This document shows, in pieces, positions 4,527 to 36,834 of a DNA stretch of 64,000 bases (position 1 is its first letter; each line of letters starts with the position of its first letter). A model generated the notes under the pieces. The model did not search any database. It was not told the DNA's origin and saw only the letters and a list, made by a program, of their open reading frames with translations. The DNA is from Polaribacter sp. HaHaR_3_91. GTDB lineage: Bacteria > Bacteroidota > Bacteroidia > Flavobacteriales > Flavobacteriaceae. The translations under genes and the position numbers were made by a program. The stretch spans positions 3,983,001 through 4,047,000 of the forward strand of contig NZ_CP058986.1 in NCBI RefSeq assembly GCF_019278525.1, read 5' to 3'.

Positions 4527-7500
4527 CTATTTATAATTCTTCTTTTCTATCATATAATAAACAAGTGGCACAACTAACAATGTTAATACCGTAGAAACAA
4601 TCGTTCCTCCCATTAAAGATATTGCTAGTCCTTGAAAAATAGGGTCAAACAAAATTACAAATGCTCCAATAACAACGGTTCCTGCGGTTAATAAAATTGG
4701 AGTTGTTCTTACTGCTCCTGCTTCAATACAAGCTTGTTTTAAAGGAATTCCTTCATCTGTTCTTAAGTTGATAAAATCTATCAATAAAACAGAATTCCGA
4801 ACCATAATTCCTGCCAGTGCAATCATTCCAATAAATGATGTTGCTGTAAAAAATGCACCCATAATCCAGTGTCCTAAAATAATTCCTATTAATGATAACG
4901 GAATTGCCACCATCATAACAATTGGTGCTTTAAAATTTTGAAACCATCCAACAATTAAAATATAAATTAAGATGATAGCTCCCAAAAATGCAATTCCTAA
5001 ATCTCTAAAAACCTCTAAAGTAATTTGCCATTCTCCATCCCATTTCACAGTGTAATTATCTTCAAAATCTGGCTGTCCCAAATACATTTCATCCAACTTA
5101 TACCCTACAGGAAGTTTTATTTCTTTCAATTTTTCTTCCATTCCTAAAATGGCATATGCCGGACTTTCTAATTCTCCTGCCATATCTGCCAATACATAAA
5201 CCACACGTTTTTGGTTTTTTCTATAAATACTTTTTGCAGCAATAGTCTCTTTAATTTCAACCAAATCTGCAATAGGAACCATATTCCCTTGTTTAGATTT
5301 TACTTTTAATTGCGAAATATCAGAAATAGTAGACTTTTCTTTTTCATCTAAACTCAATACCAAACCAACCTGATTCACCGCATTTTCATCATACAAAGTA
5401 GTAATTGCACGGTTAGACAAAGCCATATTCATGGTGTACGCAATTTGCTGCGGAACAACCCCATACAACATTGCCTTTTCTTTATTAATTTCAAATTGAT
5501 ACTCTGTTTGGTCATCTTCTACCATCCAATCGATATCTACCACATCTTCTGTGTTCTTTAAAATATTCTGAACACTATTTGCTATCTTAATTTGCTCATT
5601 ATAATCAGGTCCATAAACCTCAGCAACAATAGTAGATAATACAGGAGGTCCTGGTGGTACTTCTACCAACTTCACATTTGCATTGTATTTTGCAGCAATT
5701 CGTTGTATTTCTGGTCTTAATAATTTTGCAATTCCATGGCTCTGAATTGTTCGTTCTCCCTTATCAACCAAATTCACTTGAATATCTGCCATATTAGAAC
5801 CTCCACGTAAATCGTAATGACGTACCAAACCATTAAAAGTAATCGGTGCAGAAGTACCAATATAATTCTGATAATTCACCACTTCTGGTCTTGTTGCTAA
5901 ATACTGAGAAATTTCTTGAGCAACAACTCCTGTTCTTTCTAAAGTAGTTCCTTCTGGCATATCTATTACTACCTGAAACTCGTTTTTATTATCAAAAGGC
6001 AACATTTTTACAGCCACAGAATTGGTGAAAAATAATACCATTGTAGCCATTAAAACCACAAATGTTCCACCCAGAAACAACCAACGTTTCATTCCATTTT
6101 CCAATAAAGGTCTTTCAAATTTGTTATAAATTCTATATATAAAAGTTTCTTCTAAAGGTTTTTCTACTTTCTCTACACCACCTTTTTTATCTTTTTCTCT
6201 TAAGAAAATATATCCTAAATAAGGTGTTATGGTTAAGGCTACAAATAATGACAAAATCATTGCAATTGATGCTCCAATTGGCATTGGCGCCATATAAGGC
6301 CCCATTAAACCAGACACAAAAGCCATTGGTAAAACAGAAGCTATAACAGTAAATGTTGCTAAAATGGTTGGATTTCCAACTTCATTAATTGCATATAAAG
6401 CAGCTTGTTTAAACGGCAGACGTTTCATCTTAAAATGTCGGTGCATATTTTCTGCAATAATTATGGAATCATCCACCACAATACCTGTTACAAAAACCAA
6501 CGCAAACAACGTAATTCTGTTTAACGTATAATCCATCATATAATAACTCAACAACGTTAACGCAAACGTAATTGGCACCGATAAAAACACCACCAAACCA
6601 CCACGCCAACCCATTGCTAGCATTACAACCAAGGTAACTGCAAAGATAGAACCAATCAAATGCCACAACAGTTCAGAAACTTTATGAGAAGCGGTTTCTC
6701 CGTAATTTCTTGTAATTTCTACGTGTACATCATCCGGAATTAAAGTTGTACGTAAATGATTTACTTTTGTTAAAATAACCTCAGCAATTTTCATAGCATC
6801 GGCTCCTTTTCTTTTAGCAACAGAAATAGTTACTGCCGGATATTCAGATTTATAGGTATTGGCTTTTTCACTCGCTTTTCCGAAACCTAAACACACATAA
6901 TTCTGTGGAATTTCTGGTCCATCAACAATATTAGCAATTTGTTTTAAGTAGATTGGTCTATTCTGTTGTACGCCAACCACTAAATTTTCAACATCTGCAG
7001 CAGAAGCTAAAAACTTACCTGTTTTTACTAAAAATTCTGTATCACTTTTATCAAAACTACCTGCACTTAATTGTGTGTTATTGGCTTTTATCATTTCAGA
7101 AACTGATAAGAAATCCAATCCGCTTGCAGCCAATTTATCTTTGTCTAAAACCACACGTAACTGACGGTTTCTACCGCCAATTTTATGCGTAATAGAAACA
7201 TCATTCACCTTCTTAATTTCCGATTCTAACTCTTGCGCCATTTGGCTTAATTGATAATCGCTATAGTTTTCACTCCACAACGTTAAACCCAACATTGGCA
7301 CATCATCAATAGCACGTGTTTTAACCAACGGAAACGTAACACCAGCTGGCATTTGATCCATGTGTTTGTTAATTTCATTGTATAACTTTACAAAAGAACG
7401 CTCAATATCTTCACCCACATAAAACTGCACAATTACCATTGCTTTCTCGTTCATAGACGTAGAATACACATACTCTACACCTTTAATATTCGAGATTAAT

Positions 7501-7721
7501 TTTTCTAAAGGTTTTACCACGCGCGTTTCTACCTCGGTAGGACTCGCACCAGGATATCCCACAAAAATATCTGCCATTGGCACATCAATTTGCGGCTCTT
7601 CTTCTCTCGGAATTAAAAACGAAGCATACACACCAACCACCATAAAAACGATCATTAGCAATACGGTTAATTTTGATCCAATAAAGACTTTTGCAATTTT
7701 TCCAGCTAAACCTTCTTTCAT
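4527..7721 (-). CDS. RND efflux pump, inner-membrane permease
   Basis: A 1064-residue AcrB/CzcA-superfamily permease that would export substrates with proton entry. Features: an N-terminal helix (about 15-35), a first periplasmic half containing YPGASPTEVETRVVKPLE, a helix bundle with the proton-relay pair D417-D418 in GIVVDDSIIIAEN, a second periplasmic half, and a second bundle ending LLVVPLVYYMIEKK. The length is normal. The IPREEEPQID motif after helix 1 marks a subgroup I cannot assign to a substrate. It is third in the operon after tolC and the adaptor. The spacer to the adaptor carries an 85-bp palindromic repeat. Confidence 0.93.
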   Translation of the reverse strand: MKEGLAGKIAKVFIGSKLTVLLMIVFMVVGVYASFLIPREEEPQIDVPMADIFVGYPGASPTEVETRVVKPLEKLISNIKGVEYVYSTSMNEKAMVIVQFYVGEDIERSFVKLYNEINKHMDQMPAGVTFPLVKTRAIDDVPMLGLTLWSENYSDYQLSQMAQELESEIKKVNDVSITHKIGGRNRQLRVVLDKDKLAASGLDFLSVSEMIKANNTQLSAGSFDKSDTEFLVKTGKFLASAADVENLVVGVQQNRPIYLKQIANIVDGPEIPQNYVCLGFGKASEKANTYKSEYPAVTISVAKRKGADAMKIAEVILTKVNHLRTTLIPDDVHVEITRNYGETASHKVSELLWHLIGSIFAVTLVVMLAMGWRGGLVVFLSVPITFALTLLSYYMMDYTLNRITLFALVFVTGIVVDDSIIIAENMHRHFKMKRLPFKQAALYAINEVGNPTILATFTVIASVLPMAFVSGLMGPYMAPMPIGASIAMILSLFVALTITPYLGYIFLREKDKKGGVEKVEKPLEETFIYRIYNKFERPLLENGMKRWLFLGGTFVVLMATMVLFFTNSVAVKMLPFDNKNEFQVVIDMPEGTTLERTGVVAQEISQYLATRPEVVNYQNYIGTSAPITFNGLVRHYDLRGGSNMADIQVNLVDKGERTIQSHGIAKLLRPEIQRIAAKYNANVKLVEVPPGPPVLSTIVAEVYGPDYNEQIKIANSVQNILKNTEDVVDIDWMVEDDQTEYQFEINKEKAMLYGVVPQQIAYTMNMALSNRAITTLYDENAVNQVGLVLSLDEKEKSTISDISQLKVKSKQGNMVPIADLVEIKETIAAKSIYRKNQKRVVYVLADMAGELESPAYAILGMEEKLKEIKLPVGYKLDEMYLGQPDFEDNYTVKWDGEWQITLEVFRDLGIAFLGAIILIYILIVGWFQNFKAPIVMMVAIPLSLIGIILGHWIMGAFFTATSFIGMIALAGIMVRNSVLLIDFINLRTDEGIPLKQACIEAGAVRTTPILLTAGTVVIGAFVILFDPIFQGLAISLMGGTIVSTVLTLLVVPLVYYMIEKKNYK

Positions 7722-7735
7722 ATTATTAATATTTT

Positions 7736-7820
7736 GGGCGTTTTAACAGGCTATCCGTTACAATCTTTTTTTGCCATATATGGCAGCAAAAAAAGGATTT
7801 TCACTTCTATCCTTAACGCG
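7736..7820 (+). repeat. Palindromic dispersed repeat, copy 1
   Basis: It starts GGGCGTT and ends AACGC, with a strong inner hairpin in which CTTTTTTTGCCATA pairs with TATGGC, AG, CAAAAAAAG. The core GGCTATCCGTTA...AAAAAAAGGAT...TCACTTCTATCC matches copies at 60391-60462 (reverse) and 62757-62816. It lies between the adaptor and RND genes of the efflux operon. Confidence 0.65.
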
Positions 7821-7873
7821 ATAATTCTTGATTACTATTATAATTCAGACTTGTAATTGTGACTGAAAACTAT

Positions 7874-8953
7874 TTACTGAATACTTATCTTAGCTCCGTT
7901 GAATAATTTTCCTTCCGCAGAAACTATATAAGATTCATCAGCATTTAAACCAGATAAAACGGCAACATTGTTTCCATAAGTTCTTCCTAAACGCAACCAA
8001 CGTAACATAGCAGTATTAGTTTCACTTACTGTATAAACGCCAGATAATTGACCATTGGTAACAATTGCATCCGTAGGAATTAAAACCAATTCTGATGCTG
8101 TTTTTCTCTCTACCGGAAACTGTACCGTAGTAAACATTCCAGATAAAATAGACACCTCTGTTTTATCTAAATTAATTTTCACTAAATATTGTCCTCCTGT
8201 ATTTTTAGCAGAAGTACTTACTTCCGTAACTTTTCCTTTTAGTGTTTTATCCATAGATTTCACCAAAATATTTACAGTTGTTCCTTTTTTAATTTGTGAG
8301 ATCTCTGTTTCAGGAACCATCGCAATTACTTCAAACTCATCAGGAGCTTCTAAACTAATTAAAGGCATCCCTGGATTTGCCATATCTCCTACTTCAATAT
8401 TTTTACTAGTAATAACACCACTAAAAGGAGCCGTAATATTAGAATATGCAAACTGTGCATTAATTTCGTTTTTCATTTGATTGGCAGATTCTAAACCTGC
8501 TTTTGCCATTTGGTAATTAGCAGTCATGTCATCCATTTCTTTCTGAGTAACACTTTTACTTTCATACAAATTTTTAAAACGATTGTAATTTTTCTCTGCA
8601 TTTGTAAAAGCCGTTTTAGCCTGTGTAATACCTGCGTTTACTTGTCCTTTTTTTGCTTGTAAATCTGTATTGTTAATAGAAACTAACAACTGACCTTTTC
8701 TAACTTTGTCGCCAACATTTACATGCACATTTTTAACGTAACCCATCATTCGAGTACTTAAATCTGCACTATTAGTTGCCTCAATTTTTCCGCTTACAGA
8801 CAAAAACGGTGTGTTGCTATTTACAGCAACCTTACTAACTTTTACAGCAATTGCTGGTGTAGTATCTACCGCTGCTTTTTTTTCTTCACTACCACAACTC
8901 GTTATTAATAATGATGTTGTAAATATTGCTATTATGTATATGTATTTTTTCAT
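7874..8953 (-). CDS. RND periplasmic adaptor (membrane-fusion lipoprotein)
   Basis: A 359-residue HlyD/AcrA-type adaptor that bridges the RND permease and TolC. It has a lipoprotein signal with the lipobox LITSC (Cys at about residue 20), biotinyl-lipoyl halves (around MMGYVKNVHVNVGDKVRKGQLL and ITAPFSGVITSKNIEVGDMANPGMP), an alpha-hairpin between them and beta-barrel domains after them. It is second in the operon, 55 bp after tolC. The lipid anchor should hold it to the inner or outer membrane facing the periplasm. Confidence 0.92.
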   Translation of the reverse strand: MKKYIYIIAIFTTSLLITSCGSEEKKAAVDTTPAIAVKVSKVAVNSNTPFLSVSGKIEATNSADLSTRMMGYVKNVHVNVGDKVRKGQLLVSINNTDLQAKKGQVNAGITQAKTAFTNAEKNYNRFKNLYESKSVTQKEMDDMTANYQMAKAGLESANQMKNEINAQFAYSNITAPFSGVITSKNIEVGDMANPGMPLISLEAPDEFEVIAMVPETEISQIKKGTTVNILVKSMDKTLKGKVTEVSTSAKNTGGQYLVKINLDKTEVSILSGMFTTVQFPVERKTASELVLIPTDAIVTNGQLSGVYTVSETNTAMLRWLRLGRTYGNNVAVLSGLNADESYIVSAEGKLFNGAKISIQ

Positions 8954-9008
8954 TTGTATTGGTTTTATTTTTTTACTGAAAACGGCGACTACTTACTGCT
9001 AACTTTCT

Positions 9009-10319
9009 TTATTTCTTTGTTAGAAAATTTAAATAGGACTGTGTAAAATTATATTGGTAAATTGTTTGATAATATTCTAGTTGCTTTTGTGCAAATTGAG
9101 TTTCTGCCATTAGTAAATCGGACGTTTTTTCTAAACCTTCTTTAAATCTGTTTTTTCTAATTCTTAAAGATTCTTCTGATTGTTGTACTGCTAAATCCGT
9201 TAACTCTAATCTGTTTTTTGCATCAACCAATTGGCGCTTTACTTTATTCAATTCTAAATTACTTTTAGACACATATTGATTGTATTCTAACTTAGATTTC
9301 TCGAACTCGGCTTTACTTTTTTGAGCTTTTCCAAAACGTTTAGAACCCTGAAAAATATCCCAACTTAATTGTGCTCCAATTAAATAACCACTTGCATCAC
9401 CTTGAAAAACTTTATTATCGTACATTTCATAACTACCAAAGGCATTTAAACGCGGTAAAAAAGCCATTTTATCAGCTTTATTCATTGCTTCATAGCCTTT
9501 AGACGCCAATTTCATTGCTTTAATATCTGCTCTATTTTCAGAAATTATTTTGTTACCAATGTTAAGACTAGAAACAGCTAAACTTTCTGTGGGTTGATAC
9601 ACCACATCGCTTTCATCATTCATTAAAAATGATAAATAATTAGAAGCATTTTGTACATTACTTTTTGCTGTTTGTAACTGGTTTTTAACTTCTGTAACTC
9701 TTATCTCTACATTTAAAACATCTGCTCTTTGTAAAAAACCTTGTTTAAAACTATTATCTGCCATTGTTTTATTTGAGTTTGCAGCTTCTAAGGCTTTTTC
9801 TAAAACAGCAACACCTTTATAAGCTAATTGCAATTGCATGTATGCTTTTTCAACTTCAAAAACTAAATAATCTTGTGTACGTTCTGTTTTTAAAGACATG
9901 GCTTCCATTTTTGTCTTGGCTGCTTTTCTTTGATAGAAACCATCTAAATTGATTAAAGGTTGCTGAATCTCGATCTTCGTTGCAAAATTTCTAGTAGTTG
10001 TTGGATCATTTAACAATGCAGGATTAAAATCTGCAGAGATTAATATTTCCTGATTTAACTTAGATCCAAAAGACATTAAAGGGTTTGTTGTAGAAATACC
10101 CGTATGACTTGCTGTAATATTTGGTAAAAACACAGCATTGGTTTGTCTATAATCTGCTTTTGAAGCATTAAACTCTTCTTTAGAAATTTGAATGGTTCTA
10201 TTATTTTCTACAACTTTGACTAAGATTTCTGCTTTTGAAATTGGTTTTATCTCTTGTGCATCTACAAGCAAAGTAACTGTAAATAAGCAAAATATGGTTA
10301 TGTATATTGTATTTTTCAT
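9009..10319 (-). CDS. TolC-family outer-membrane efflux channel
   Basis: A 436-residue outer-membrane channel and first gene of the efflux operon. The ATG at 10319 is chosen because it gives a signal peptide (MKNTIYITIFCLFTVTLLVDAQ); an upstream ATG at 10343 overlaps the -7 element. Two TolC repeats are visible as long helical segments with Ala/Asn/Gln heptads (about 150-220 and 350-410) and ending NFTQSYLNFLTKK. A Crp/Fnr-like dyad lies at 10371-10384, so the whole operon may be under redox control. Confidence 0.9.
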   Translation of the reverse strand: MKNTIYITIFCLFTVTLLVDAQEIKPISKAEILVKVVENNRTIQISKEEFNASKADYRQTNAVFLPNITASHTGISTTNPLMSFGSKLNQEILISADFNPALLNDPTTTRNFATKIEIQQPLINLDGFYQRKAAKTKMEAMSLKTERTQDYLVFEVEKAYMQLQLAYKGVAVLEKALEAANSNKTMADNSFKQGFLQRADVLNVEIRVTEVKNQLQTAKSNVQNASNYLSFLMNDESDVVYQPTESLAVSSLNIGNKIISENRADIKAMKLASKGYEAMNKADKMAFLPRLNAFGSYEMYDNKVFQGDASGYLIGAQLSWDIFQGSKRFGKAQKSKAEFEKSKLEYNQYVSKSNLELNKVKRQLVDAKNRLELTDLAVQQSEESLRIRKNRFKEGLEKTSDLLMAETQFAQKQLEYYQTIYQYNFTQSYLNFLTKK

Positions 10320-10340
10320 GTATTCTTTAATTATCTGAGG

Positions 10341-10348
10341 CAAATGTA
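10341..10348 (-). promoter_or_regulatory. -7 element TACATTTG of the tolC-RND operon
   Basis: Exact TAnnTTTG match on the minus strand, 22 bp before the chosen tolC start at 10319. Its upstream edge is 29.5 bp from the centre of the dyad at 10371-10384. Confidence 0.6.
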
Positions 10349-10370
10349 CACTGGATAATTTCTCAAGTCA

Positions 10371-10384
10371 GTAACATAAGTTAC
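10371..10384. promoter_or_regulatory. Crp/Fnr-type dyad GTAAC-ATAA-GTTAC (tolC-RND operon)
   Basis: Perfect 5-bp inverted arms with a 4-bp spacer, the layout of Crp/Fnr-family operators. The spacing to the -7 element is identical to that of the sites in front of cydA and the cytochrome c gene. Assignment to the regulator at 30244-30876 is inference. Confidence 0.6.
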
Positions 10385-10611
10385 CTAGCAAAGAATGATA
10401 GTTCGCTATAGTTGCATACTTATTTCTACGAAACATACGGATCACTATTACAAATAGAATATTGAATAGTTGTAGGATAAACTTTTATAGCTAAAAAAGC
10501 GATTATCTGAGTTTTGGAAATGTTTAAAATAAAGGAATACGTTTTTTTTCTGAAGGCTTAGGAATAATATATATTTTTTTAAATACCTTCACATTTTAAA
10601 ACTAAATCGGC

Positions 10612-21806: not shown

Positions 21807-22103
21807 TTATTTACTTAACTTACTTTTTATCAACTTAATAATTACCAATCCTAAAACACCTCCTAAAAGAGAAACCATACAATTAACGCTAAATAATACC
21901 CCATTAAATGTTTCATTTTGCATTATCGATTGCGGATTAAAGCCTAATCGTCCAAATGATTTAATAAAAAAGACACTTCCAAAAACACCCGCTATTGTAT
22001 TACCTACAATACCAAATGAATATTTTTTAAACAGCATACCAAAACCTATCGCTCCAATTATTCCTAATAAAATACTGAGTAAAGAAATTAATGTTTCTGT
22101 CAT
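21807..22103 (-). CDS. Small membrane protein co-transcribed with cydAB
   Basis: A 98-residue hydrophobic protein with about three predicted helices (residues 4-24, 28-48 and 70-92). Gly-rich stretches (GIIGAIGFGMLF, LLGGVLGLVIIKLIKSK) recall small GlsB/YeaQ-type membrane proteins, but I do not recognise a family with confidence. It starts 15 bp after cydB on the same strand and so very likely belongs to the bd-oxidase operon. It is longer than the known CydX/CydY subunits (about 30-40 residues). Confidence 0.6.
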   Translation of the reverse strand: MTETLISLLSILLGIIGAIGFGMLFKKYSFGIVGNTIAGVFGSVFFIKSFGRLGFNPQSIMQNETFNGVLFSVNCMVSLLGGVLGLVIIKLIKSKLSK

Positions 22104-22118
22104 AATATTAGGTTTAGA

Positions 22119-23192
22119 TTAATGGCCGTAATCCATATCATCAACCTTACCTCCCTTTAATCTTTTTTGGATGATTGCATAAATTACAAGTAAGATAACA
22201 CCAATAATTCCCCAAATAAACGCTATAGATAAGCCGTATTCTGGTGCCGCAGTATTGTATATGGTAAGTGGCTCGTGAACATCATTAACAGAAGGTAAAA
22301 TAACAGGAAATAAAGAAGCCAAAGAAGAGGTAATTCCTCCTAATATTAATAAAGTTGATAGCCAAAAGGCATGTACCTCTTTTTTAATTTTTTTGATAAA
22401 AAATAAGCCAACTAATCCCGTAAAATACAGCATCGGGAATACTAATAAATAAGGTTTATCTACAAAATTATTTAAAGAGTCTGGATTTACAATTTGCCAC
22501 ACTGCTACCGAAAAAATGGTAAGAATTGTTAAAGTAATATTCAACTTAAAAATAACACTTTTCAATTTTAAATTGATAGTTGAATTGGTTTTTAAAATTA
22601 CCCAATTAGCACCGTGTATTGCTAAGGTAACTACAGAAATTAAACCTATAATAATCGTAAACCAATCTATAACTCCCGGATGCTCTGTTAGAGGACTAAA
22701 GCTACTATCCCAAAGTGGTAAGAAAAAATAATGCCCTTCATACACAGAAACTCCGTTTTCTACGCCACCTAAATTTACACCTCTCACAATATTCCCTAGA
22801 GCAATCCCAAAAAATAAGGCCAGTAATAAACTAGAAACTCCAAAAGAAACATCCCAAATATCTTTCCACATCTGATATTTAAATTGACTTCTAAATTCAA
22901 GTCCAATTGCTCTAAAAATAATCAACCATAAAACGATAATTAAGGGCAAGTAGAATCCGCTAAATACAGAAGCATAAAACGTAGGAAAAGCCATAAAAAG
23001 CATTCCTCCTGCAGCTACTAACCAAACCTCATTAGAATCCCAAAATAAACCTGCAGATTTTGTAATTACTTCTTTATCCTTTTCTTTTTTAGCAAAAAAT
23101 AAATGAATAATTCCTGTTCCGAAATCATATCCGTCTAAAACAAAAAAGACTCCTAAAACAGTTGCTATTATAATGTACCAAAATATTTCCAT
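22119..23192 (-). CDS. cydB: Cytochrome bd ubiquinol oxidase subunit II
   Basis: A 357-residue inner-membrane subunit pairing with CydA in the high-affinity quinol:O2 oxidoreductase. Diagnostic: start WYIIIATVLGVFFVLDGYDFGTGI, then FWDSNEVWLVAAGGMLFMAFP. About eight to nine helices are visible. It follows cydA by 3 bp and precedes a small membrane protein. The upstream Crp/Fnr-like dyad suggests induction when oxygen is low. Confidence 0.97.
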   Translation of the reverse strand: MEIFWYIIIATVLGVFFVLDGYDFGTGIIHLFFAKKEKDKEVITKSAGLFWDSNEVWLVAAGGMLFMAFPTFYASVFSGFYLPLIIVLWLIIFRAIGLEFRSQFKYQMWKDIWDVSFGVSSLLLALFFGIALGNIVRGVNLGGVENGVSVYEGHYFFLPLWDSSFSPLTEHPGVIDWFTIIIGLISVVTLAIHGANWVILKTNSTINLKLKSVIFKLNITLTILTIFSVAVWQIVNPDSLNNFVDKPYLLVFPMLYFTGLVGLFFIKKIKKEVHAFWLSTLLILGGITSSLASLFPVILPSVNDVHEPLTIYNTAAPEYGLSIAFIWGIIGVILLVIYAIIQKRLKGGKVDDMDYGH

Positions 23193-23195
23193 CGT

Positions 23196-24527
23196 TTAAT
23201 GTTTTTGAAGTTTAGGACCTTCGTTAATCGTTTTACCTACTAAAACTAAAAATAATAGTCCTAATAGCATGTATAAAGCAACAAAACCCAATAAGGTAAA
23301 TAAAGTATTTCCAGAAGACACCGTTGGCGAAACACCATCGCTTGTTTTTAGCAATCCGTAGACTAAATAAGGTTGTCTTCCCAATTCTGCCGTGTACCAA
23401 CCCGTAAGGTTAGCAATGTATGGAAACGGAACTAAAAACATAATAAACCAAAGTAATGGTTTAAAAGTGTACAGTTTTTTTCGCCATAAAAAGAAAAGTG
23501 CTAATGCCATAATACCAATAAATATAGTACCTAAACCAACCATTATATGATAAGAATAATAAAGAGCCGGTATATTATCTGGCAATTCTTCTTCTTTAAA
23601 TTGATCCATTCCTGGAATTTGCTTGTTCCAATCTTGATGGGTTAAAAAACTTAAGATATTAGGAACTGCAATTTTATTGTCTAATTTTTTTTCGACCATA
23701 TTTGGCTGTCCAATCAACACAATTTCTGCTCCAGCTTCTTCTGTTTCAAAAATCCCTTCCATGGCAGCAAAAGCCGCTGGTTGATATTTTGCAACATTTT
23801 TAGCATTCCAATCTCCAGTAGGGAAAGCCACTAAAAGGCTAGAAACTAATCCGAAAATTATACCCGTTTTTAAGAATAATTTTCCGTATTCAACTTGTTT
23901 TTTTCTTAAAATATAAAAAGCACCAATACTGGCTACCACAAAAGATGAGGTTACCACAGATGCCATTTGATTGTGTAAAAAAGCAGGTAACAACCAAGGG
24001 TTTGAAAACAATGATGAGAAATTTTCTAATACAAATTTTCCGTTTTCTAAAATTTCATAACCAACAGGATGTTGCATCCAAGCATTGGTAGCTAAAATAA
24101 ACCAACCACTTGCCCAAGAACCTAAAAAGACTAAAAAACCTGTTAAAAGATGGAGTTTTTGTCCCATTAATTTTTCACCAAAAATAAAGAGTGCTAAGAA
24201 AGAGGATTCTAAGAAGAAAGAAAACAGACCTTCCATCGCTAAGGTTTGTCCAATAATTCCGCCTGTAAGCTCAGAAAATTTTGCCCAATTGGTACCAAAT
24301 TGAAATTCCATTGGAATCCCTGTAATAACACCCATTGTAAAGTTAATTGCAAAAATCTTCATCAAAAATTTTGCAGCATTGTTATATTGTTCATTGTTAT
24401 TTCTTAAATATTTCCATTTATAATAGACTATCAATAATGAAAGTCCCATTGTTAATTGCGGAAATATGTAGTGAAAGGTGATAGTAAATGCAAACTGCAA
24501 TCTATCATAAAAGAGCATGTCTTCCAT
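23196..24527 (-). CDS. cydA: Cytochrome bd ubiquinol oxidase subunit I
   Basis: A 443-residue heme-bearing subunit. H19 (TFHYIFPQLTMGLS) is the usual heme b595 ligand, the FLHNQMASVVTSSFV segment carries a second histidine, and the family signature GWYTAELGRQPYLVYGLLKT lies near residues 375-395. The length fits the short Q-loop type rather than the longer E. coli type. It is first in the operon cydA-cydB-small membrane protein. Confidence 0.97.
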   Translation of the reverse strand: MEDMLFYDRLQFAFTITFHYIFPQLTMGLSLLIVYYKWKYLRNNNEQYNNAAKFLMKIFAINFTMGVITGIPMEFQFGTNWAKFSELTGGIIGQTLAMEGLFSFFLESSFLALFIFGEKLMGQKLHLLTGFLVFLGSWASGWFILATNAWMQHPVGYEILENGKFVLENFSSLFSNPWLLPAFLHNQMASVVTSSFVVASIGAFYILRKKQVEYGKLFLKTGIIFGLVSSLLVAFPTGDWNAKNVAKYQPAAFAAMEGIFETEEAGAEIVLIGQPNMVEKKLDNKIAVPNILSFLTHQDWNKQIPGMDQFKEEELPDNIPALYYSYHIMVGLGTIFIGIMALALFFLWRKKLYTFKPLLWFIMFLVPFPYIANLTGWYTAELGRQPYLVYGLLKTSDGVSPTVSSGNTLFTLLGFVALYMLLGLLFLVLVGKTINEGPKLQKH

Positions 24528-24560: not shown

Positions 24561-24568
24561 CAAAAATA
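24561..24568 (-). promoter_or_regulatory. -7 element TATTTTTG of the cydAB operon
   Basis: Exact TAnnTTTG on the minus strand, 33 bp before the cydA ATG. Its upstream edge is 29.5 bp from the centre of the dyad at 24591-24604. Confidence 0.55.
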
Positions 24569-24590
24569 TACATTACCATACGTTCCCTAT

Positions 24591-24604
24591 GTAACATAAG
24601 TAGC
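24591..24604. promoter_or_regulatory. Crp/Fnr-type dyad GTAAC-ATAA-GTAGC (cydAB)
   Basis: One perfect GTAAC half and a degenerate second half (3 of 5). The ATAA spacer and flanking CTA are the same as in the tolC site at 10371. Same geometry to the -7 element as the other two sites. Confidence 0.5.
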
Positions 24605-25454: not shown

Positions 25455-26036
25455 TTATTTCTTTACAAACTTCACAAATAACTCCATTTTCTGTCTGTTA
25501 GGATAAGAATTATAACATTTAGTAAAAACATCCATATTAAAATAGGAATCAAAATACTTTATGTATTCTGTTTTACTTCCACCAAAAGGTGGATGATCCT
25601 CATTTAGTTTTGCATCGAAAAGTAATCCTACTAATTTCCCTTTTTCACCTAACAAATGGTTCATTTTCTGTGCATATTTCTCTCTTAAATCAGGATGTAT
25701 TGCACAGAAAAAAGTTTGTTCAATAATCAAATCAAAAGTTTGATCTAACTCAAAAAAATCACCTAAAATTAATTGTGATTCTGGAAAACCTGAAACCCTA
25801 TTTTTAATGTTTTCTAGGGCACTTTTAGCTAAATCTACCACATAAACATTGGTAAAACCATTATTAAAAAGATATTCTGCTTCGTAAGAATTTCCACCAC
25901 CTGGAATTAAAATTTTTAAGTCTTTGTTTGTTAATTGATCAAAATATGTTTTTAAAGGAGGAGAAACAGCTCCTAAATCCCAACCAATTTTGTTTGTTTG
26001 ATACTTGTTTTCCCAAAAATCTTCAGATAAGTTCAT
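25455..26036 (-). CDS. TPMT-like class I SAM-dependent methyltransferase
   Basis: A 193-residue protein resembling thiopurine S-methyltransferase family members: start FWENKYQTNKIGWDLGAVSPPLKTYF, SAM site LIPGGGNSYEAEYLFNNGF with VYVVDLAKSALENI, and the motif IIEQTFFCAIHPDLREKYAQKM. Bacterial members methylate chalcogen or halide substrates, but activity cannot be read from sequence. Single gene, divergent from nadA. Confidence 0.82.
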   Translation of the reverse strand: MNLSEDFWENKYQTNKIGWDLGAVSPPLKTYFDQLTNKDLKILIPGGGNSYEAEYLFNNGFTNVYVVDLAKSALENIKNRVSGFPESQLILGDFFELDQTFDLIIEQTFFCAIHPDLREKYAQKMNHLLGEKGKLVGLLFDAKLNEDHPPFGGSKTEYIKYFDSYFNMDVFTKCYNSYPNRQKMELFVKFVKK

Positions 26037-28882: not shown

Positions 28883-29182
28883 TTACTTACCACTGTTATT
28901 TATAATAGTAATTAACTGGTTTTTAGGCACTGCTCCAGATTGCCTCCAAACTTGTTTGCCAGATTTGTATAAAATTAAAGTTGGTACACCTCTAACCTCA
29001 TATTTTGCAGCTAACGATTGGTTTTTATCAACATCTATTTTAACAATAGAAACTGCATCACCTAATGCGTCTTTTACTTCTTTTAAAATTGGACTCATGG
29101 TTTTACAAGGTCCACACCATTCTGCGAAAAAATCTACTAAAACAGGTTTATCTTGATTTATAATTTCTGAAAAATTGCTCAT
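28883..29182 (-). CDS. trxA: Thioredoxin
   Basis: A 99-residue cytosolic thioredoxin: [14 protein letters not shown] with active-site C23 and C26, cis-proline in [13 protein letters not shown], full family length. It lies 19 bp after the cytochrome c/DUF3365 gene on the same strand and probably shares its promoter. If so, it falls under the Crp/Fnr-like dyad at 30234. A genome may have several thioredoxins, so the symbol is by family only. Confidence 0.94.
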
Positions 29183-29201
29183 GCCTAAGAACTTTATATG
29201 A

Positions 29202-30191
29202 TTATTTATTAAAGGTAATACTCCAAATTCCTCTCACTTGATTTTCACTATATCCAATCGCCAAATCCTTTGGATATAACTTGTCTATTTGGGCTAATGT
29301 AGTGCTTTTAATATCCGAAGTTGGTTTACCATGACATTGTAAACACATGCTATTTGTTTTAATTGGGTAATAAAACTTTACATTTTCTGCAGATTCAACA
29401 ACAATGGGTTCTGACTCTTTATTTGCTTTAGCCTCTTCTTTAAAAATATTAATATAACCTTTTTCTAAAGTGTTTGCAACATTTTTAATATTTCTTGGTT
29501 TGTCAGAGACTCTTTTTATGGTTGCTTTATGTACAACAGACATACTATCTGTTAAAGGAAAAGCTTGCACATTACAAAAATTTAATGCTGCCAGAGTTCC
29601 TTTTTTTTGAATTGTCCCCATTAAGTTTTTACCCAAAACACTTTTGGTAGCTAATGCATACTTCAATCCTTTTTCACTGTAAGATAGTTTTTTAAAATTA
29701 GTACCTTGACCTTGCTGTTGTCTTTGCATTCTTTTTCCATTACCGCCTCCGTTTCCATGTTGTTGATTATAATGTTCGTCAAACCCTTCTGGTTTTTCAA
29801 TATCAGACTCAAACATATAACCTGCAATTTCTTTGATCGTTTCTTCAGGAAAAACTTGTTTTGGCATTACTCCAAAACGTTTTACTGCACCGTACATTTT
29901 AGCATTCTCTTCTGTTGGATTTTTAATAAAATCTTGTATTGACTTAATAAATGCTTCTTTAGAGCTATTACTCATTAAGTAACGCTTTTTTATAGTAATC
30001 ATTGGTGGTGCAATTCGGTTATCTTCTGGTGTTATAGCATCATGGCAAACATAACAATTGGTTTCCATTAACTTTTTACCAATATGTTCTTGTGTATCCG
30101 AAACTGACTTTTTAGAATAAGAAGGAGATTTCTTAGCATCTTTACATCCAAACATAAAAGATACTAATATAAATAAAATTAAAAATTTCAT
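29202..30191 (-). CDS. Two-heme periplasmic lipoprotein: cytochrome c domain fused to DUF3365
   Basis: A 329-residue predicted lipoprotein (lipobox FMFGC, Cys16). Residues 35-130 form a class I cytochrome c domain with the heme motif CYVCH (46-50) and a Met-bearing segment around FGVMP. A Gly/Gln/Arg-rich linker spans 141-166. Residues 170-329 match the DUF3365 (Tll0287-like) heme domain with CLQCH (283-287) and the ending [15 protein letters not shown]. Such proteins are thought to be heme sensors or electron carriers in the periplasm. It lies between the Crp/Fnr gene and trxA. Confidence 0.85.
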
Positions 30192-30203: not shown

Positions 30204-30211
30204 CAAAAATA
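30204..30211 (-). promoter_or_regulatory. -7 element TATTTTTG of the cytochrome c/DUF3365 gene
   Basis: Exact TAnnTTTG on the minus strand, 12 bp from the ATG at 30191, so the leader would be very short. Its upstream edge is 29.5 bp from the centre of the dyad at 30234-30247. Confidence 0.6.
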
Positions 30212-30233
30212 GGATGTCTTTTATTATTATTCA

Positions 30234-30247
30234 GTAACTAATGTTAC
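30234..30247. promoter_or_regulatory. Crp/Fnr-type dyad GTAAC-TAAT-GTTAC (cytochrome c-trxA)
   Basis: Perfect 5-bp inverted arms with a 4-bp spacer. It overlaps the stop codon of the Crp/Fnr gene, so the regulator's own 3' end carries a likely target site for the next genes. Confidence 0.65.
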
Positions 30248-30876
30248 AGTTCTAAAACTTTAATACTATTTCTAAATAATTGAATTTTACTTTCGTTTTC
30301 TAACTTTTTAAGTAATCTAGAAATAACAACTCTAGAGGTATGTAAATCTTCAGAAATTTGTTTATGGGTAACATTTAAAACATCATTATGGGTAACCATT
30401 GCCTTATCTTTAAGATATTTAAAAAGACGTTCGTCCATTTTTAGAAAAGCAATAGTATCTAAAGCTTCTAAAAGCTCATCCATTCTGTTATGATATGTTT
30501 GTAAAATATAAGATTGCCAAGTTTTATATTTCCCTAACCATTCTGCCATTTTTTCTTTTGGCAACATAATTAATTCAACATTTGTTTCTGCTACCGCTCT
30601 AATCTTACTTTTTGTTTGCCCCATACAGCAAGAAAGTGTCATGGCACAAGTATCTCCTTTTTCTAAATAGTATAAAACAATCTCATCTCCATATTCATCT
30701 TCTCTAAGAATTTTAATGGCTCCAGAAATTAATAAAGGCATCGATTTTATATAATCTCCAACTTCTATAATAGTTGTATCTTCTTTAAAGCTTTTAGAAA
30801 CGCCTAATTTTTCTATTTCTAAAATTAAATCTTCCTCAAAAAGGTAACCAAAATTAATCTCTAACTTACTTGTCAT
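30244..30876 (-). CDS. Crp/Fnr-family transcriptional regulator
   Basis: A 210-residue regulator. Cyclic-nucleotide-binding-like beta-roll (about 20-115), dimerisation helix (about 120-145) and winged helix-turn-helix (about 165-200, THKQISEDLHTSRVVISRLLKKLE). In the recognition helix R182 and R187 align with the DNA-contacting arginines of Crp, while the position of Crp E181 is Val183, which fits a target other than TGTGA. There is no N-terminal FNR-type cysteine cluster; C77, C83 and C84 lie in the roll and could sense redox state (inference). The GTAAC-N4-GTTAC dyads in the window are its candidate targets. Confidence 0.92.
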   Translation of the reverse strand: MTSKLEINFGYLFEEDLILEIEKLGVSKSFKEDTTIIEVGDYIKSMPLLISGAIKILREDEYGDEIVLYYLEKGDTCAMTLSCCMGQTKSKIRAVAETNVELIMLPKEKMAEWLGKYKTWQSYILQTYHNRMDELLEALDTIAFLKMDERLFKYLKDKAMVTHNDVLNVTHKQISEDLHTSRVVISRLLKKLENESKIQLFRNSIKVLEL

Positions 30877-31201: not shown

Positions 31202-32530
31202 TTAAAAATTGACATTTAAAATATCTCCACTTAATTGTAAAAGTTGTAATTCAATTAATTTTGCATCAAATTTAGCATTGTTAAAAGCTGTTTTAGAATT
31301 TAGTAAATTAATTTGTGCTTGCCTAAATTCTATAGATGTTATTTGTCCCAATTTATAACGCTCTGTACTTCTATCAAAATTATTCTGTGTAGTTGATACA
31401 TTTTTTTCTTGTGCTGATAAAATAAATAATTGGTTTTGATAATTCTCCCAAGTATTTTTCAGATTATTATTGATGGTTACTTTTTGTTGTTCTAATAATA
31501 TTTGCTGATTTTCTAATGCTATTTTTGCATTGGCAACATTGGTTTTTGTACTTCCACCGTCAAACAAATTCCAAGACAAACTTAAACCTGCATTTAATCC
31601 GTTAGATGATGTAGATTTTGGCTGAAAGGCATTGGCAAGGTTTTCGTTATCATTCTGGTTCCAACCATAAGATGTATTTAAAGCTAAAGAAGGTAAATAA
31701 TTAGCCTTATTTACTTTAATGTTAAACTCGCTAATAGCAATGTTTTTTTCATTTTGTTTAAGGGTAGAATTATTAGCAATTGTTTTTTGCTGGAGCTCTT
31801 CTAAATTCATCATTTTATTAAAACTAACCTCCGTTTCAACATTATAAGTTACTGCTTTTTCAATTCCTAAAATAATGTTTAAACCACGTTTGGCATTGCT
31901 TAATTGCTGTTTGGCACTTATTAATGTAATGCTATCATTATTTACATCTACCTCTGCATTTAACAACTCTAACTTAGTTGATTGCCCGTATTCGTATTGA
32001 TATTTTGCACGCAGTAAACGTTGTTTAGAAATAGACAATGCCTCGTCTAAATTTGTCTTATTTTCTGATAACCTTGCAATTTGAAAGTATGAGGTAAACA
32101 ATTGTAAATAGGTGTTTTCGATCGTTTCTCTAGCTTGTAATTCGGTTAAATTATAGGTTTCTTTTAATTGCTGATAATTGTATTTTCTTCCCAATCCATC
32201 AAAAAGAATATAATTTAAACCAATACTTGCGTTATAAGACTTAGTTACAGCACCTGTAGTAGATGTTGCTGCGCCCGTTTGTGGTGTGTTGGTTTGATTA
32301 TTATTGCTATAATTTGCTCCCGAAGAAACCGTTGCCGTTGGCAAAAAACCAGTATTATAAATACTTTTATTGTTTTTTGCAACTTCTAAATTATTGTTCG
32401 CAATTTTAATTCCGAAGTTATTTTCTAAGGTAATTTCTAATGCTTCTTTTTTGCTTAAAATCTCTTGCGAGATTCCTTGTAAAGTCGATAAAAACCCGAC
32501 TATTAATATGGTATTTCTAATGATCTTCAT
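31202..32530 (-). CDS. TolC-family outer-membrane efflux channel (second system)
   Basis: A 442-residue channel protein with signal peptide (MKIIRNTILIVGFLSTLQGISQ). Two repeats of long helical hairpins are visible, with an ELLNAEVDVNNDSI and EFRQAQINLLNSKTAF pair at equivalent positions (about 205 and 405). It overlaps the RND gene by 14 bp and is the last gene of a three-gene operon. It shares family, but not close sequence, with the tolC at 9009-10319. Confidence 0.92.
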   Translation of the reverse strand: MKIIRNTILIVGFLSTLQGISQEILSKKEALEITLENNFGIKIANNNLEVAKNNKSIYNTGFLPTATVSSGANYSNNNQTNTPQTGAATSTTGAVTKSYNASIGLNYILFDGLGRKYNYQQLKETYNLTELQARETIENTYLQLFTSYFQIARLSENKTNLDEALSISKQRLLRAKYQYEYGQSTKLELLNAEVDVNNDSITLISAKQQLSNAKRGLNIILGIEKAVTYNVETEVSFNKMMNLEELQQKTIANNSTLKQNEKNIAISEFNIKVNKANYLPSLALNTSYGWNQNDNENLANAFQPKSTSSNGLNAGLSLSWNLFDGGSTKTNVANAKIALENQQILLEQQKVTINNNLKNTWENYQNQLFILSAQEKNVSTTQNNFDRSTERYKLGQITSIEFRQAQINLLNSKTAFNNAKFDAKLIELQLLQLSGDILNVNF

Positions 32531-35500
32531 GTTCGTCGAATTTAGATTCTATAACAGCTCTTTCTACCTCTTCTTTATTTACTTTATCTCCTGTTTTTAG
32601 CCATTTAAGTCCAACTTTTACAGAATTAGAAACAGACAATAATAATGGTAACATTACCAAGGTTAAAATGGTTGCAATTGCTATTCCGTAAGAAATAGAA
32701 ATTGCCATCGGAATTAAAAATTGTGCCTGTCTACTTTTTTCTAACATTAAAGGGGCTAAACCAGCTACTGTGGTTAAAGAAGTTAAGAAAATGGCTCTAA
32801 AACGAGATTGACCAGCCAAAACTAAAGCGTCATCAAACAACATTCCTTCTTTTAAATAACTATTAAATTTCCCTATTAAAACTAAACCATCATTTACCAT
32901 AATACCTACTAGTGCAATAATACCCAACCAAGATAAAATGTTGATTGGAAAATCGTGAATATAATGCCCTAAAACAACCCCAATCATACTAAAAGGAATC
33001 ATTATAAGTAATAATAGTGGCTGACTGTAAGAACGAAATGTAAACGCTATTACAATATAAATTAAGCCTAAAATAATCCACTTTAACCATTCTAAAGAAT
33101 CTATGGTTTTTTGGGCCTCTCTATTCTGACCTTCGTAAAGAGGAGATACAGAATGATATTTAGAAATTATTAACGGCATTACACGTGTTTTAATATCATC
33201 TAAAATTTCAGTTGCACTTTCTTTTGGATCTTTCAAATCTGCAGAAACTTGAATTTCTCTTTTTCCATTTAAATGATTTATAGCAATATCTCCTCTTTTA
33301 ATTTGATAATTTCCAATTTCTGAAAACGAAATTCTTGTTCCGTTTGGAGCTACAATTTGCATATCATCTAAGTTTTTAATAGAAGATCTATCTTTTCTAT
33401 TATAACGCACCCAGACTTTAATTTCGTCTTGTCCTCTTTGAAAACGCTGTGCTTGAAATCCAAAGAAACCATTACGAATTTGCGCCATTACAGATTGTAA
33501 ATTTAAGCCTAAAACATATGCATTGTCTTTTAAAGTAATGCTTACCTCTTTAATTCCAGCAGGATCATTATCTGAAATATCTTTTAATAAAGGATTATTT
33601 TCTAACTCTAGTTTTAATTCTGCTTTTGCGGCTTTTAACTCTTCAATATTATTTCCTAATAAAGAAACTGCAACTGGACTTCCTCCAAAATTACCACCAG
33701 AACCAAAAATTAAACTTTCTACACCGTACACTTTTCCTACTTTTTCTCTAATAGAATTTGTTATTTCTGGTGATGAAAACTCTCTACTTTCTCCTGCTAA
33801 TAAATTGATATTTAAAGTAGCATTCGCACTACCGGGACCAACTCTTTTTATGATATTTTGTACAACTTGCTCGTTTCCGGATTGTTTTGCTGTATATTCT
33901 TTATTTATCAACCAAACTTTTTCTTCAATTTTAGAAATTATAGAATCCGTAATTTGTTCGTTTGTACCTTGGGGCATTTTTAAGGTTACTTGTATTTTAT
34001 CACTTGCAATAGAAGGAAAAAAAGATGTTCTTACAATTCCGCCACCAATAGATGTTATACTAAAGATTAACAACGCAATAGGTATTGAGAAAGCAAATAT
34101 TTTATTTTTTAAAGAAAACTTTAAAAAAGGTACGTATAGTTTTTCATTTATTTTTGTTAACCCTCCGTCTGCAAACCTGTTTATTTTATTAAAAAACGCA
34201 TCAATTGCATTCTTCTTTTTTACCTCACCATTTTCTAGTCTTTTTCTGTCTAAAGCTTTAGAATGTGCAATATGTGCTGGTAAAATAATTAAGGCTTCAA
34301 TTAAAGAAACTGTTAATGTTAAAAGTACAACAGTAGAAACTTCACTAAAAAAATTACCAATTCTACCATCTACAAAAAACAAGGTTGAAAAAGCAATAAT
34401 AGTGGTTAGTATTGCCGAAACAATTGGCGGAATTACTTCCATTGTACCATCTATGGCTGCTTGAATTTTAGATTTCCCTAAATCATAGTAATGATGATAA
34501 ATATTTTCTCCAATTACAATTCCATCATCCACCAAAATACCAATAACAATAATCATCCCAAACAGCGATAAGATATTTATAGTAACATCAAATTGTGCTG
34601 CTAAAATAAACATCCCGAAAAATGAAATAGGCAAACCAAAGGCCACCCAAATTGCCAAACGCAAATTTAAAAACAATGCTAAAAAGAAGAGCACAAGTAA
34701 AATACCTACCACTCCGTTTTCTATTAAAAGTCTGGTTCTACCTTGTAAAGTTACACTTCTATCATCTGTAATATCTAAATGAATATTTTGGTTTTGCTGA
34801 TTAAATTTGTGAATGTATTCTTTAATTTTATCCGCAGAAGAAAGTAAATCTTCATTGTTTGTATTACTTATAGAAATATCAATTGCTAAATTACCATTGT
34901 AATATAATCTATCTGGAGTTTCTGACCATGTATCTTTAACCTCTGCAATATCTTTTAGGCGAATTATATGTCCGTTTGTTTCCGTTCTAACTATAAGGTT
35001 TTGTAACTCTACACCATAATAAGAACGGTTACTTGCTCTAATTAAATAATCTTCTTGGGCAGTTTTAATATTACCTCCAGTTATTAAAAGATTAGAGTTT
35101 TGAATAGCCGTTGCTACATCTGTAAAGGACAAATTATACGCACGTAAATCATTTTCTTTTACAGCGATTTCAATTTCTTCGTCTGGAAATCCAGAGAGAG
35201 ACACTTGAGAAATTCCTTCAATCCCTCTAATATCATTTTCTATATTTCTAGCATATTGCTTTAAAGAACCTAGCGAAATATCGTCTCCACTAATCGTAAA
35301 ACTGATGGTTGGTCTAATATTTTCTACTTTTGCAATTACGGCAGGTTCCATACCAGAAGGAAAAGACGGAACTCTATCTACTGCATTTTTTACATCTGTT
35401 AAAACAACATCTATATCTTTTCCTTTTTCTACCTCTATATTTACCGTTGCAGAGTTTTCGCTAGAAACAGATGTTACACGTTCTACGCCAACAATTCCTT

Positions 35501-35717
35501 TTAAATTATCTTCAATTTTAAGGACAACACCTTCTTCCATTTCTGCAGGAGAAGCTCCTGGGTATGCTAAAGATATGTTTATTAATTCAGAGTCTGTCAA
35601 CGGAAAGAAAGACGATTTCATTGTAATAGCGCCCACTAAACCAAAAGCTACAAATGCAATAATAAAGACATTAACCGCAACAGGATATTTAATAAAATAT
35701 GTAATTATTTTTTTCAT
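32517..35717 (-). CDS. RND efflux pump, inner-membrane permease (HAE-like, second system)
   Basis: A 1066-residue permease. N-terminal helix (about 12-32), YPGASPAEMEEGVVLKIEDNLKGI, proton-relay pair D397-D398 in GILVDDGIVIGEN, central GGSPVAVSLLGNN, second half with GIIALVGIMVNDGLVLI, and an acidic His-containing C-terminal tail (ESKFDEHEDH). The SSFFPLTDSELI motif after helix 1 resembles the hydrophobe/amphiphile exporters. Middle gene of the adaptor-RND-TolC operon, overlapping tolC. Confidence 0.93.
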   Translation of the reverse strand: MKKIITYFIKYPVAVNVFIIAFVAFGLVGAITMKSSFFPLTDSELINISLAYPGASPAEMEEGVVLKIEDNLKGIVGVERVTSVSSENSATVNIEVEKGKDIDVVLTDVKNAVDRVPSFPSGMEPAVIAKVENIRPTISFTISGDDISLGSLKQYARNIENDIRGIEGISQVSLSGFPDEEIEIAVKENDLRAYNLSFTDVATAIQNSNLLITGGNIKTAQEDYLIRASNRSYYGVELQNLIVRTETNGHIIRLKDIAEVKDTWSETPDRLYYNGNLAIDISISNTNNEDLLSSADKIKEYIHKFNQQNQNIHLDITDDRSVTLQGRTRLLIENGVVGILLVLFFLALFLNLRLAIWVAFGLPISFFGMFILAAQFDVTINILSLFGMIIVIGILVDDGIVIGENIYHHYYDLGKSKIQAAIDGTMEVIPPIVSAILTTIIAFSTLFFVDGRIGNFFSEVSTVVLLTLTVSLIEALIILPAHIAHSKALDRKRLENGEVKKKNAIDAFFNKINRFADGGLTKINEKLYVPFLKFSLKNKIFAFSIPIALLIFSITSIGGGIVRTSFFPSIASDKIQVTLKMPQGTNEQITDSIISKIEEKVWLINKEYTAKQSGNEQVVQNIIKRVGPGSANATLNINLLAGESREFSSPEITNSIREKVGKVYGVESLIFGSGGNFGGSPVAVSLLGNNIEELKAAKAELKLELENNPLLKDISDNDPAGIKEVSITLKDNAYVLGLNLQSVMAQIRNGFFGFQAQRFQRGQDEIKVWVRYNRKDRSSIKNLDDMQIVAPNGTRISFSEIGNYQIKRGDIAINHLNGKREIQVSADLKDPKESATEILDDIKTRVMPLIISKYHSVSPLYEGQNREAQKTIDSLEWLKWIILGLIYIVIAFTFRSYSQPLLLLIMIPFSMIGVVLGHYIHDFPINILSWLGIIALVGIMVNDGLVLIGKFNSYLKEGMLFDDALVLAGQSRFRAIFLTSLTTVAGLAPLMLEKSRQAQFLIPMAISISYGIAIATILTLVMLPLLLSVSNSVKVGLKWLKTGDKVNKEEVERAVIESKFDEHEDH

Positions 35718-35721
35718 CTAA

Positions 35722-36834
35722 TTACTGTTTATTAATTTTTACAATCATACCGTCAAAAGCACCTGGCAATACTTGTGTTAATATTTTTTGATTATTCTCT
35801 AAACCTTTAATCACCACTTTTTCGCTACCAAAATAAACTGGTTGAATATTTGTTAACGTTAAAATACTATCGTTTTTAATTGTATAAACAGATTGGTTGT
35901 CTACTAGTAATTTTCTAGAAATTTCGATAGCATCAATTTCAGATTTTGCAACTAAGTCTGCTTCTAAAAACATACCTTCTTTTAAATCGGCATGTATTAC
36001 ATCTACATATGCTTTTATTGTTTGTGTTACTTGGTCTACTTTTCCATTAACACGAACCACTTTTCCTGTGTATTTTTTTGTTTTTTCTAAATTAGATAAG
36101 TCAACAGAATTACCAACTTTTAATAAGTCTGCATATTCTGAATTTACAGAAACTTCCATTTCATATATTTTAGGATCTATAAACTCGCCTAATTTCTGAC
36201 CAACTCTAACTAAAGTTCCAGGGCTAACTAAAGCTTCTGTTAAAACACCAGAAAAAGGAGCTCTAATTTGATGTTTAGACAAACGTACTTCTAGGTTTTT
36301 AACATTATAATATGCTGTTAAAATTCCTCGTCCAGAAATAAAATACTTTTCTTTATCTGATGAGAATTCGGGTAATTTTGGCGTTGATTTGTTCATATCA
36401 AAACCTTGTAAATAATTTTCCCAATTCTTAAATTCAACTGGGTAATCTAAACGTAAATCTGGTAAAATAGCCGTAATTAAATTATACAAGTTACTTTTCT
36501 GAGACTGTAAGCTTGCGTAAAACTCATCGCTATTTATACCTAATAAAGTTTCACCACGGTTATATTTTGTACCTGCCTTAAATAACTTATTAGATACTTT
36601 TAAAACTCCAGAAACTTCAGAGTAAATTTCTATTTTATTTTTTGCAATTAAGTTTCCGCTTGCAGTTAAAACAATAGGAATATTTTTATTACTTACATTT
36701 TCTACAAAAACAGTTTTTATTTGTCTTTCAAATGTTGGTTTTGGTTTTTGATTTTTATCAATAAGGTAATTGCCTAATAAGATAGCACCTACGATTGTTA
36801 AAATACCTAGGATCGCTAGAATAATTTTTCTCAT
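35722..36834 (-). CDS. RND periplasmic adaptor, membrane-anchored (second system)
   Basis: A 370-residue HlyD/AcrA-type adaptor. Unlike the first system's adaptor it has no lipobox; an uncleaved helix (about residues 4-25) anchors it to the inner membrane. Lipoyl halves at IEIYSEVSGVLKVSNKLFKAGTKYNRGETLL and IRAPFSGVLTEALVSPGTLVRVGQKLGEF flank a central segment shorter and less heptad-like than usual. First gene of the operon, 4 bp before the permease. Confidence 0.9.
   Translation of the reverse strand: MRKIILAILGILTIVGAILLGNYLIDKNQKPKPTFERQIKTVFVENVSNKNIPIVLTASGNLIAKNKIEIYSEVSGVLKVSNKLFKAGTKYNRGETLLGINSDEFYASLQSQKSNLYNLITAILPDLRLDYPVEFKNWENYLQGFDMNKSTPKLPEFSSDKEKYFISGRGILTAYYNVKNLEVRLSKHQIRAPFSGVLTEALVSPGTLVRVGQKLGEFIDPKIYEMEVSVNSEYADLLKVGNSVDLSNLEKTKKYTGKVVRVNGKVDQVTQTIKAYVDVIHADLKEGMFLEADLVAKSEIDAIEISRKLLVDNQSVYTIKNDSILTLTNIQPVYFGSEKVVIKGLENNQKILTQVLPGAFDGMIVKINKQ

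Follow-up and report, generated by a model that had tools for sequence, protein, structure and literature searches.

The window analysed here comprises 64,000 nucleotides of Polaribacter sp. HaHaR_3_91 (NZ_CP058986.1, positions 3,983,001 to 4,047,000). On its minus strand, positions 30244 to 30876 encode a Crp/Fnr-family regulator of 210 amino acids, in which a domain resembling cNMP-binding domains contains Cys77, Cys83, and Cys84, and a helix-turn-helix carries the recognition helix SRVVISR. The stop codon of this gene is the TAA within the GTAAC of a dyad at 30234 to 30247. This predicted operator, GTAACATTAGTTAC (30247 to 30234), is followed after a 22-bp spacer by the box TATTTTTG (30211 to 30204), and the whole element (30204 to 30247, minus strand) precedes a predicted target operon at 28883 to 30191 (minus strand) composed of genes for a cytochrome c/Tll0287 protein (29202 to 30191) and a thioredoxin (28883 to 29182). 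The arrangement of dyad, 22 bp, and box behind the regulator gene recurs in related loci.

Two further elements of the same design lie on the minus strand of the window. At 10341 to 10384, the operator GTAACTTATGTTAC with the box TACATTTG after a 22-bp spacer is located upstream of a predicted target operon (4527 to 10343, minus strand) for a TolC-type outer membrane protein (9009 to 10343 as listed), an adaptor (7874 to 8953), and an RND permease (4527 to 7721). At 24561 to 24604, the half-degenerate operator GCTACTTATGTTAC, again with a 22-bp spacer and the box TATTTTTG, is located upstream of cydAB. Read from 24604 to 24561, its dyad contains two mismatches, which both fall in the half distal to the promoter. 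The predicted operon behind it (21807 to 24527, minus strand) contains cydA (23196 to 24527), cydB (22119 to 23192), and a gene for a 98-amino acid protein (21807 to 22103) without a match in Pfam or NCBIfam. All three elements are present as a sequence-only reading of the window had described them. On the plus strand (10371 to 10414), the dyad of the tolC element read in reverse has TATAGTTG, with one mismatch, at 22 bp, and this site, which faces a nicotinate phosphoribosyltransferase gene at 10612, is possibly a divergent promoter.

Spacing and promoter position of the dyad

The complete genome (4,208,346 bp) contains five perfect GTAAC-N4-GTTAC dyads. In three of these, TAnnTTTG follows on the same strand after exactly 22 bp, a fourth has TAATATTG at 22 bp, and the fifth lies within a long open frame. 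When up to one mismatch was allowed over all 16 fixed bases at a spacing of 22, we obtained seven matches, corresponding to six dyads of which one was counted on both strands, versus none for the reversed pattern used as a control. The earlier claim that the identical geometry is unlikely to be a coincidence is borne out by these seven matches, three of which are exact. With up to three mismatches there was no enrichment, the 84 matches being fewer than the 122 of the control. Matches with two or three mismatches in this genome are thus uninformative without context, and the support for the cydA site of the window comes from its conservation in relatives.

In 149 Flavobacteriaceae genomes, including that of HaHaR_3_91, a pattern of dyad, N10-38, and TAnnTTTG, which permits 29 spacings, gave 251 matches versus 53 for the control. 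Among the 150 matches listed, the spacing was 22 bp in 116, 21 bp in 12, and 23 bp in 6, with the remaining 16 scattered over 10 further spacings. The scan of the genome and of related Flavobacteriaceae suggested by the sequence-only reading has thus revealed a spacing preference, with 116 of the 150 listed matches at 22 bp. At 80 named regulator loci, which were selected via the regulator and include numerous close relatives (many from Polaribacter and Tenacibaculum), 68 of 84 dyad-box pairs located 5 to 60 bp apart were separated by 22 bp, compared with none in the control. The spacer is constant in length and varies in sequence among loci. The observation of a dyad 22 bp from TAnnTTTG is confirmed.

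Class II activators act from sites centered at -41.5, as does E. coli CRP. In Flavobacterium psychrophilum, start-site mapping has placed TAnnTTTG at -12 to -5 (PMC9723704). Combined with the 22-bp spacer, these start sites, which are borrowed from F. psychrophilum, position the dyad at -48 to -35 with its center at -41.5, in agreement with the earlier estimate of -41.5 for the window. The assignment of the predicted operator as a Crp/Fnr-type site in a class II position is therefore supported. Among 170 distinct exact sites from the collected loci, 52 have a TG directly after the dyad, at -34/-33, while the mirror image of this TG is rare on the opposite side (9); A is frequent from +1 onward (0.65 at +1 and 0.69 at +3). 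Possibly, this TG is what remains of a -33 element.

The regulator and its association with the operator

Matches to PF00027 and PF13545 above the cut-off place the protein encoded at 30244 to 30876 in the Crp/Fnr superfamily. It is predicted to fold like CRP (mean pLDDT 86.7), and CRP-type structures ranked first in both fold comparisons of the model. Confidence drops to its lowest values (about 69 to 74) around residues 71 to 90, the region of the cysteines. Positions 77, 83, and 84 hold the only cysteines of the protein, with none among the first 76 residues. FNR-type Fe-S oxygen sensors carry an N-terminal cysteine cluster, and such a set is thus absent here. Among 50 aligned relatives, C77 and C83 are invariant and at least 90% have C84 as well, which provides the conserved cysteine pair expected of a persulfide-sensing regulator.

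In an alignment with E. coli CRP, to which the regulator is 24% identical, the cysteines lie within the stretch that corresponds to the cAMP cassette, GELGLFEEGQERS in CRP and AMTLSCCMGQTKS in the regulator. The cassette residues Gly71, Glu72, and Arg82 of CRP are replaced by Ala, Met, and Lys, which does not match a cAMP-dependent CRP. Shared with CRP are the fold, the two-domain layout, equivalents of Arg180 and Arg185, and the operator center at -41.5, whereas Glu181 of CRP is replaced by a valine, Val183, that is invariant in the 50 aligned relatives. Among solved structures, the best sequence match (E 7.5e-25) and the first hit in Foldseek is PDB 3dv8, a Crp/Fnr regulator of Eubacterium rectale whose title states no function. 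It has cysteines at both places of the C-x5-C motif, but is about 20 to 22% identical in structural alignments and has the recognition helix HREVITR instead of SRVVISR.

Across the family, 115 genomes encode a close homologue of the regulator (E<1e-60), and 98 of them contain the pattern, compared with 6 of the 34 others, of which 23 had no match at E<=1e-10 and 11 had weaker matches (p 4e-13, a statistic that, like those of the other regulator and operator associations, ignores ancestry). Of the 17 homologue genomes without a pattern match, for each of which one piece was inspected, 13 had homologues at E 1e-60 to 1e-72. In 12 of these 13 we found a near-match site with one or two mismatches at 21 to 22 bp, at most 150 bp past the regulator stop and in six cases directly behind it; G022 of the same group had no such site within 150 bp past the stop. 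One-mismatch sites were present in G138, and the examined pieces of G089, G103, and G122, which have the regulator, contained no site of up to two mismatches. Of the 80 named loci, 60 have a site between -60 and +400 of the regulator stop. It matches exactly with a 22-bp spacing at 44 of them and with a 21-bp spacing at 5, and it has one mismatch at 9 and two mismatches at 2; the other 20 loci have none in this interval. The sequence-only reading had assigned the dyad to the product of 30244 to 30876, which emerges from this co-occurrence and adjacency as its likely reader and is the best candidate for binding the operator.

At the level of the phylum, 117 genomes gave a hit, and the regulator was examined in 67 of them. 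The motif was present in 20 of 26 genomes with strict SRVV helices, in 1 of 15 with other RVV helices, and in 4 of 26 with RE helices, ancestry again being ignored. This co-occurrence of SRVV and motif agrees with the link between CRP position 181 and operator sequence described in earlier work (PMC1274295). At L255, L257, L259, and L263, which have SRE helices, there is no perfect palindrome at 21 to 23 bp from a box. These four loci have C-x5-C regulators beside SQR, PDO, or YeeE and no GTAAC site in the piece. Four of the 31 motif-bearing genomes of this set (G372, G380, G258, and G335) have no regulator hit. At L267 of G372, the translated frames at about 850 to 1850 contain regularly repeating peptides that suggest a CRISPR-like repeat array. 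In G380, an identical dyad with a spacing of 22 bp precedes hcp (L266, G380:C3:771959-772002), and the operator alone thus does not identify the regulator.

The operator is indeed not new. HcpR2, a Crp/Fnr regulator of hcp (Rodionov et al. 2005), has the common operator consensus GTAACnnnnGTTAC, which corresponds to the dyad found here, and HcpR-type promoters seem to have the same geometry. The HcpR2 proteins described in that paper have Pro at CRP position 181 and a regulon of mainly hcp, compared with Val and sulfur genes here (PMC1274295). For hcp (PF03063), there was no match in the HaHaR_3_91 genome and a match of 42 positions in 1 of 149 family genomes, unlike what is expected of HcpR2 targets. 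Membership of the regulator in HcpR was rejected because residue 181 and hcp disagree, despite the operator.

Genes behind the predicted sites

Elsewhere in the HaHaR_3_91 genome, an exact site precedes a Thioredoxin_9 gene, and sites with one mismatch, in the dyad, precede a ruvB-sulP-PDO/rhodanese-rhodanese cluster, in which the PDO is the only match to our PDO query, and a rhodanese gene. An additional site with one mismatch, in the box, precedes the gene of a 491-amino acid protein without a Pfam match. Neither ruvB nor this last protein, behind two of the sites, has an obvious fit to a sulfur regulon. At L016 (G000:C1:2078070-2078113, minus strand), GTGACAAATGTCAC, followed by TAAATTTG at 22 bp, precedes two genes named by eye, one ArsR-like and the other small and thioredoxin-like. 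The single TauE homologue found in the genome, a weak match (E 5e-9), was rejected as a target; nearby there is just a three-mismatch match on the other strand.

In the loci of relatives, 77 of 79 distinct exact sites (21 to 23 bp) are followed by a reading frame. Protein groups, for which families were checked in representatives and other names were given by eye, comprise TauE-like exporters (22 sites), MBL/rhodanese proteins resembling persulfide dioxygenases (19), TolC (12), SulP (4), cytochrome c/Tll0287 proteins (4), and ferredoxin-like proteins (3), followed by smaller groups. No nitrite or NO enzyme was recognised among the groups behind these 77 sites, the labels being partly by eye.

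A census of protein clusters in 120 related loci counted sites with up to two mismatches at 21 to 23 bp within 260 bp upstream of each gene, the clusters taking their names from family matches of representatives or from inspection by eye. Sites were found upstream of tolC in 18 of 18 cases, of peroxiredoxin genes (named by eye) in 14 of 15, of SQR-like genes in 11 of 13, of YeeE in 21 of 29, of PDO/rhodanese genes in 75 of 105, and of TauE in 43 of 61, as well as in 3 of 5 cases for an FAD protein and 3 of 6 for SulP. For cydA, 16 of 30 genes had a site, one exact and eight with at most one mismatch, and for the thioredoxin cluster 28 of 104. Low counts were obtained for two clusters (1 of 4 and 1 of 6) and for the regulator itself (3 of 119). 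Upstream regions shuffled once each gave no sites, and neither did the remaining clusters examined in the 120 loci, including cydB and a second YeeE gene, which may sit inside operons. The proposal that the three operons of the window form a regulon of this regulator has gained from these counts, with tolC at 18 of 18 and cydA at 16 of 30 in relatives, and the three are likely members.

Two neighboring candidates were discarded as targets. A TPMT-like methyltransferase gene near cydAB (25455 to 26036) has counterparts in the neighborhood of the regulator at 49 of 120 related loci; a site of up to two mismatches precedes 1 of these 49, and the best match before the copy in the window has five mismatches. 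A second TolC-adaptor-RND operon beside the regulator (31202 to 36834) has sites in 0 of 24, 0 of 24, and 0 of 21 relatives for its genes. In some relatives, GTGAC variants are located behind neighbors of the regulator.

The probable signal and its alternatives

A sulfur gene is present within a 3.6-kb piece at 37 of 47 loci encoding C-x5-C regulators versus 9 of 22 loci encoding regulators with the first cysteine only (p 0.003). This holds for C-x5-C regulators irrespective of the helix, with 19 of 25 for SRVV and 18 of 22 for RE. None of 12 other cNMP-domain loci of the HaHaR_3_91 genome contains a sulfur gene, and one of 17 window pieces does, a rhodanese of the UPF0176 type. As expected of a persulfide sensor, sulfide and persulfide genes are located behind the operator at computed sites. 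In Acinetobacter baumannii, the same functional set of SQR, PDO, TauE, and YeeE/YedE is under the persulfide sensors FisR, a sigma-54 activator, and BigR, an ArsR repressor, whose protein families and promoter logic are unrelated to those described here (PMC7315123). Bd oxidases resist sulfide (PMC4815019).

From the site, its spacing, the regulator association, the target genes, and the cysteine conservation, all established by computation, we infer binding, activation rather than repression, a sulfur signal, and cysteine chemistry. The GTAAC-N4-GTTAC dyad at -41.5 would be the operator of the activator encoded at 30244 to 30876, a dimer of which would recruit RNA polymerase in the class II manner at promoters in which TAnnTTTG is the most evident core element. 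Residues of the cAMP cassette have been lost, and that segment carries a cysteine pair formed by Cys77 with Cys83/84; most probably, persulfides or polysulfides derived from sulfide modify or cross-link these cysteines and thereby switch the activator. The regulon would scavenge reactive sulfur through persulfide dioxygenase/rhodanese, rhodanese, thioredoxins, SulP, the TolC-RND exporter, and a c-type cytochrome, and would install a sulfide-resistant cytochrome bd oxidase encoded by cydAB. As a whole, we regard a sulfide- or persulfide-responsive class II Crp/Fnr activator of a sulfur-defense regulon and cydAB as the probable explanation.

Of the alternatives, the one that survives best, itself improbable, retains the operator and the regulator and has the cysteines respond more broadly to thiol or oxidative stress, be it from disulfides, electrophiles, peroxide, or metal, with the sulfur genes merely a part of the response. 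The thioredoxins and the peroxiredoxin-like gene (named by eye) among the targets are compatible with this possibility, as is the TolC-RND exporter as the most constant target, but PDO/rhodanese, TauE, and YeeE make up the largest families of targets, and it is to such sulfur genes that 37 of 47 C-x5-C regulators are adjacent.

The sequence-only reading had suggested O2, nitrite, or NO as the signal, which would make the protein an FNR-, DNR-, or HcpR-like regulator of respiration. CydAB and a c-type cytochrome are indeed among the predicted targets, and the dyad is the HcpR2 motif, of which hcp is the published NO-linked target (PMC1274295) and which precedes hcp at the same spacing in G380. 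We nevertheless consider this quite improbable, because sulfur genes dominate the families behind the sites, because hcp was not found in the genome itself and matched over 42 positions in 1 of 149 family genomes, and because the three cysteines, all beyond residue 76, provide no N-terminal set of the FNR type. The regulatory logic of that earlier interpretation thus largely holds, whereas its O2/NO physiology is not supported, the sites in relatives marking sulfide and persulfide genes and the physiology probably being a different one.

It is very improbable that another Crp/Fnr paralogue reads the dyad and that the neighboring regulator is incidental, since, although 13 matches to the cNMP-binding family were obtained in the genome, co-occurrence and adjacency favor the product of 30244 to 30876, the one paralogue examined shows the reverse association (pattern in 22 of 42 genomes with it versus 82 of 107 without), and among the 12 frames listed an R-V-V recognition helix was seen by eye in this protein only.

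Beyond this genome, we lean, with less assurance than for the sulfide- or persulfide-responsive activator itself, toward a Crp/Fnr clade, widespread in Bacteroidota, in which the cyclic-nucleotide pocket has become a cysteine-based persulfide sensor, C-x5-CC having replaced the phosphate cassette. In the Flavobacteriaceae, this sensor would control a sulfide-defense regulon including cytochrome bd and TolC-RND through one rigid class II geometry. Its sensing and DNA-reading parts would evolve separately, the cysteine pair going with sulfur genes and SRVV with the GTAAC operator.

The operator and the protein superfamily are already known. In a literature search by titles and abstract beginnings, with most subscription journals outside it, we recognised no report of a Crp/Fnr protein controlling sulfide or persulfide genes in Bacteroidota and no description of this regulon, of the cysteine-substituted sensor, or of the strict geometry on a Bacteroidota promoter. 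The analysis provides one gene, an exact operator of fixed spacing, and a list of targets, which can be checked in a single mutant. With its rigid 22-bp spacing, the system would also offer a clear example of class II activation at promoters of the TAnnTTTG type. If our reading is correct, it would add a Crp/Fnr route of persulfide sensing to the FisR and BigR routes and would explain why cytochrome bd, a drug-type exporter, and sulfur genes share a common switch.
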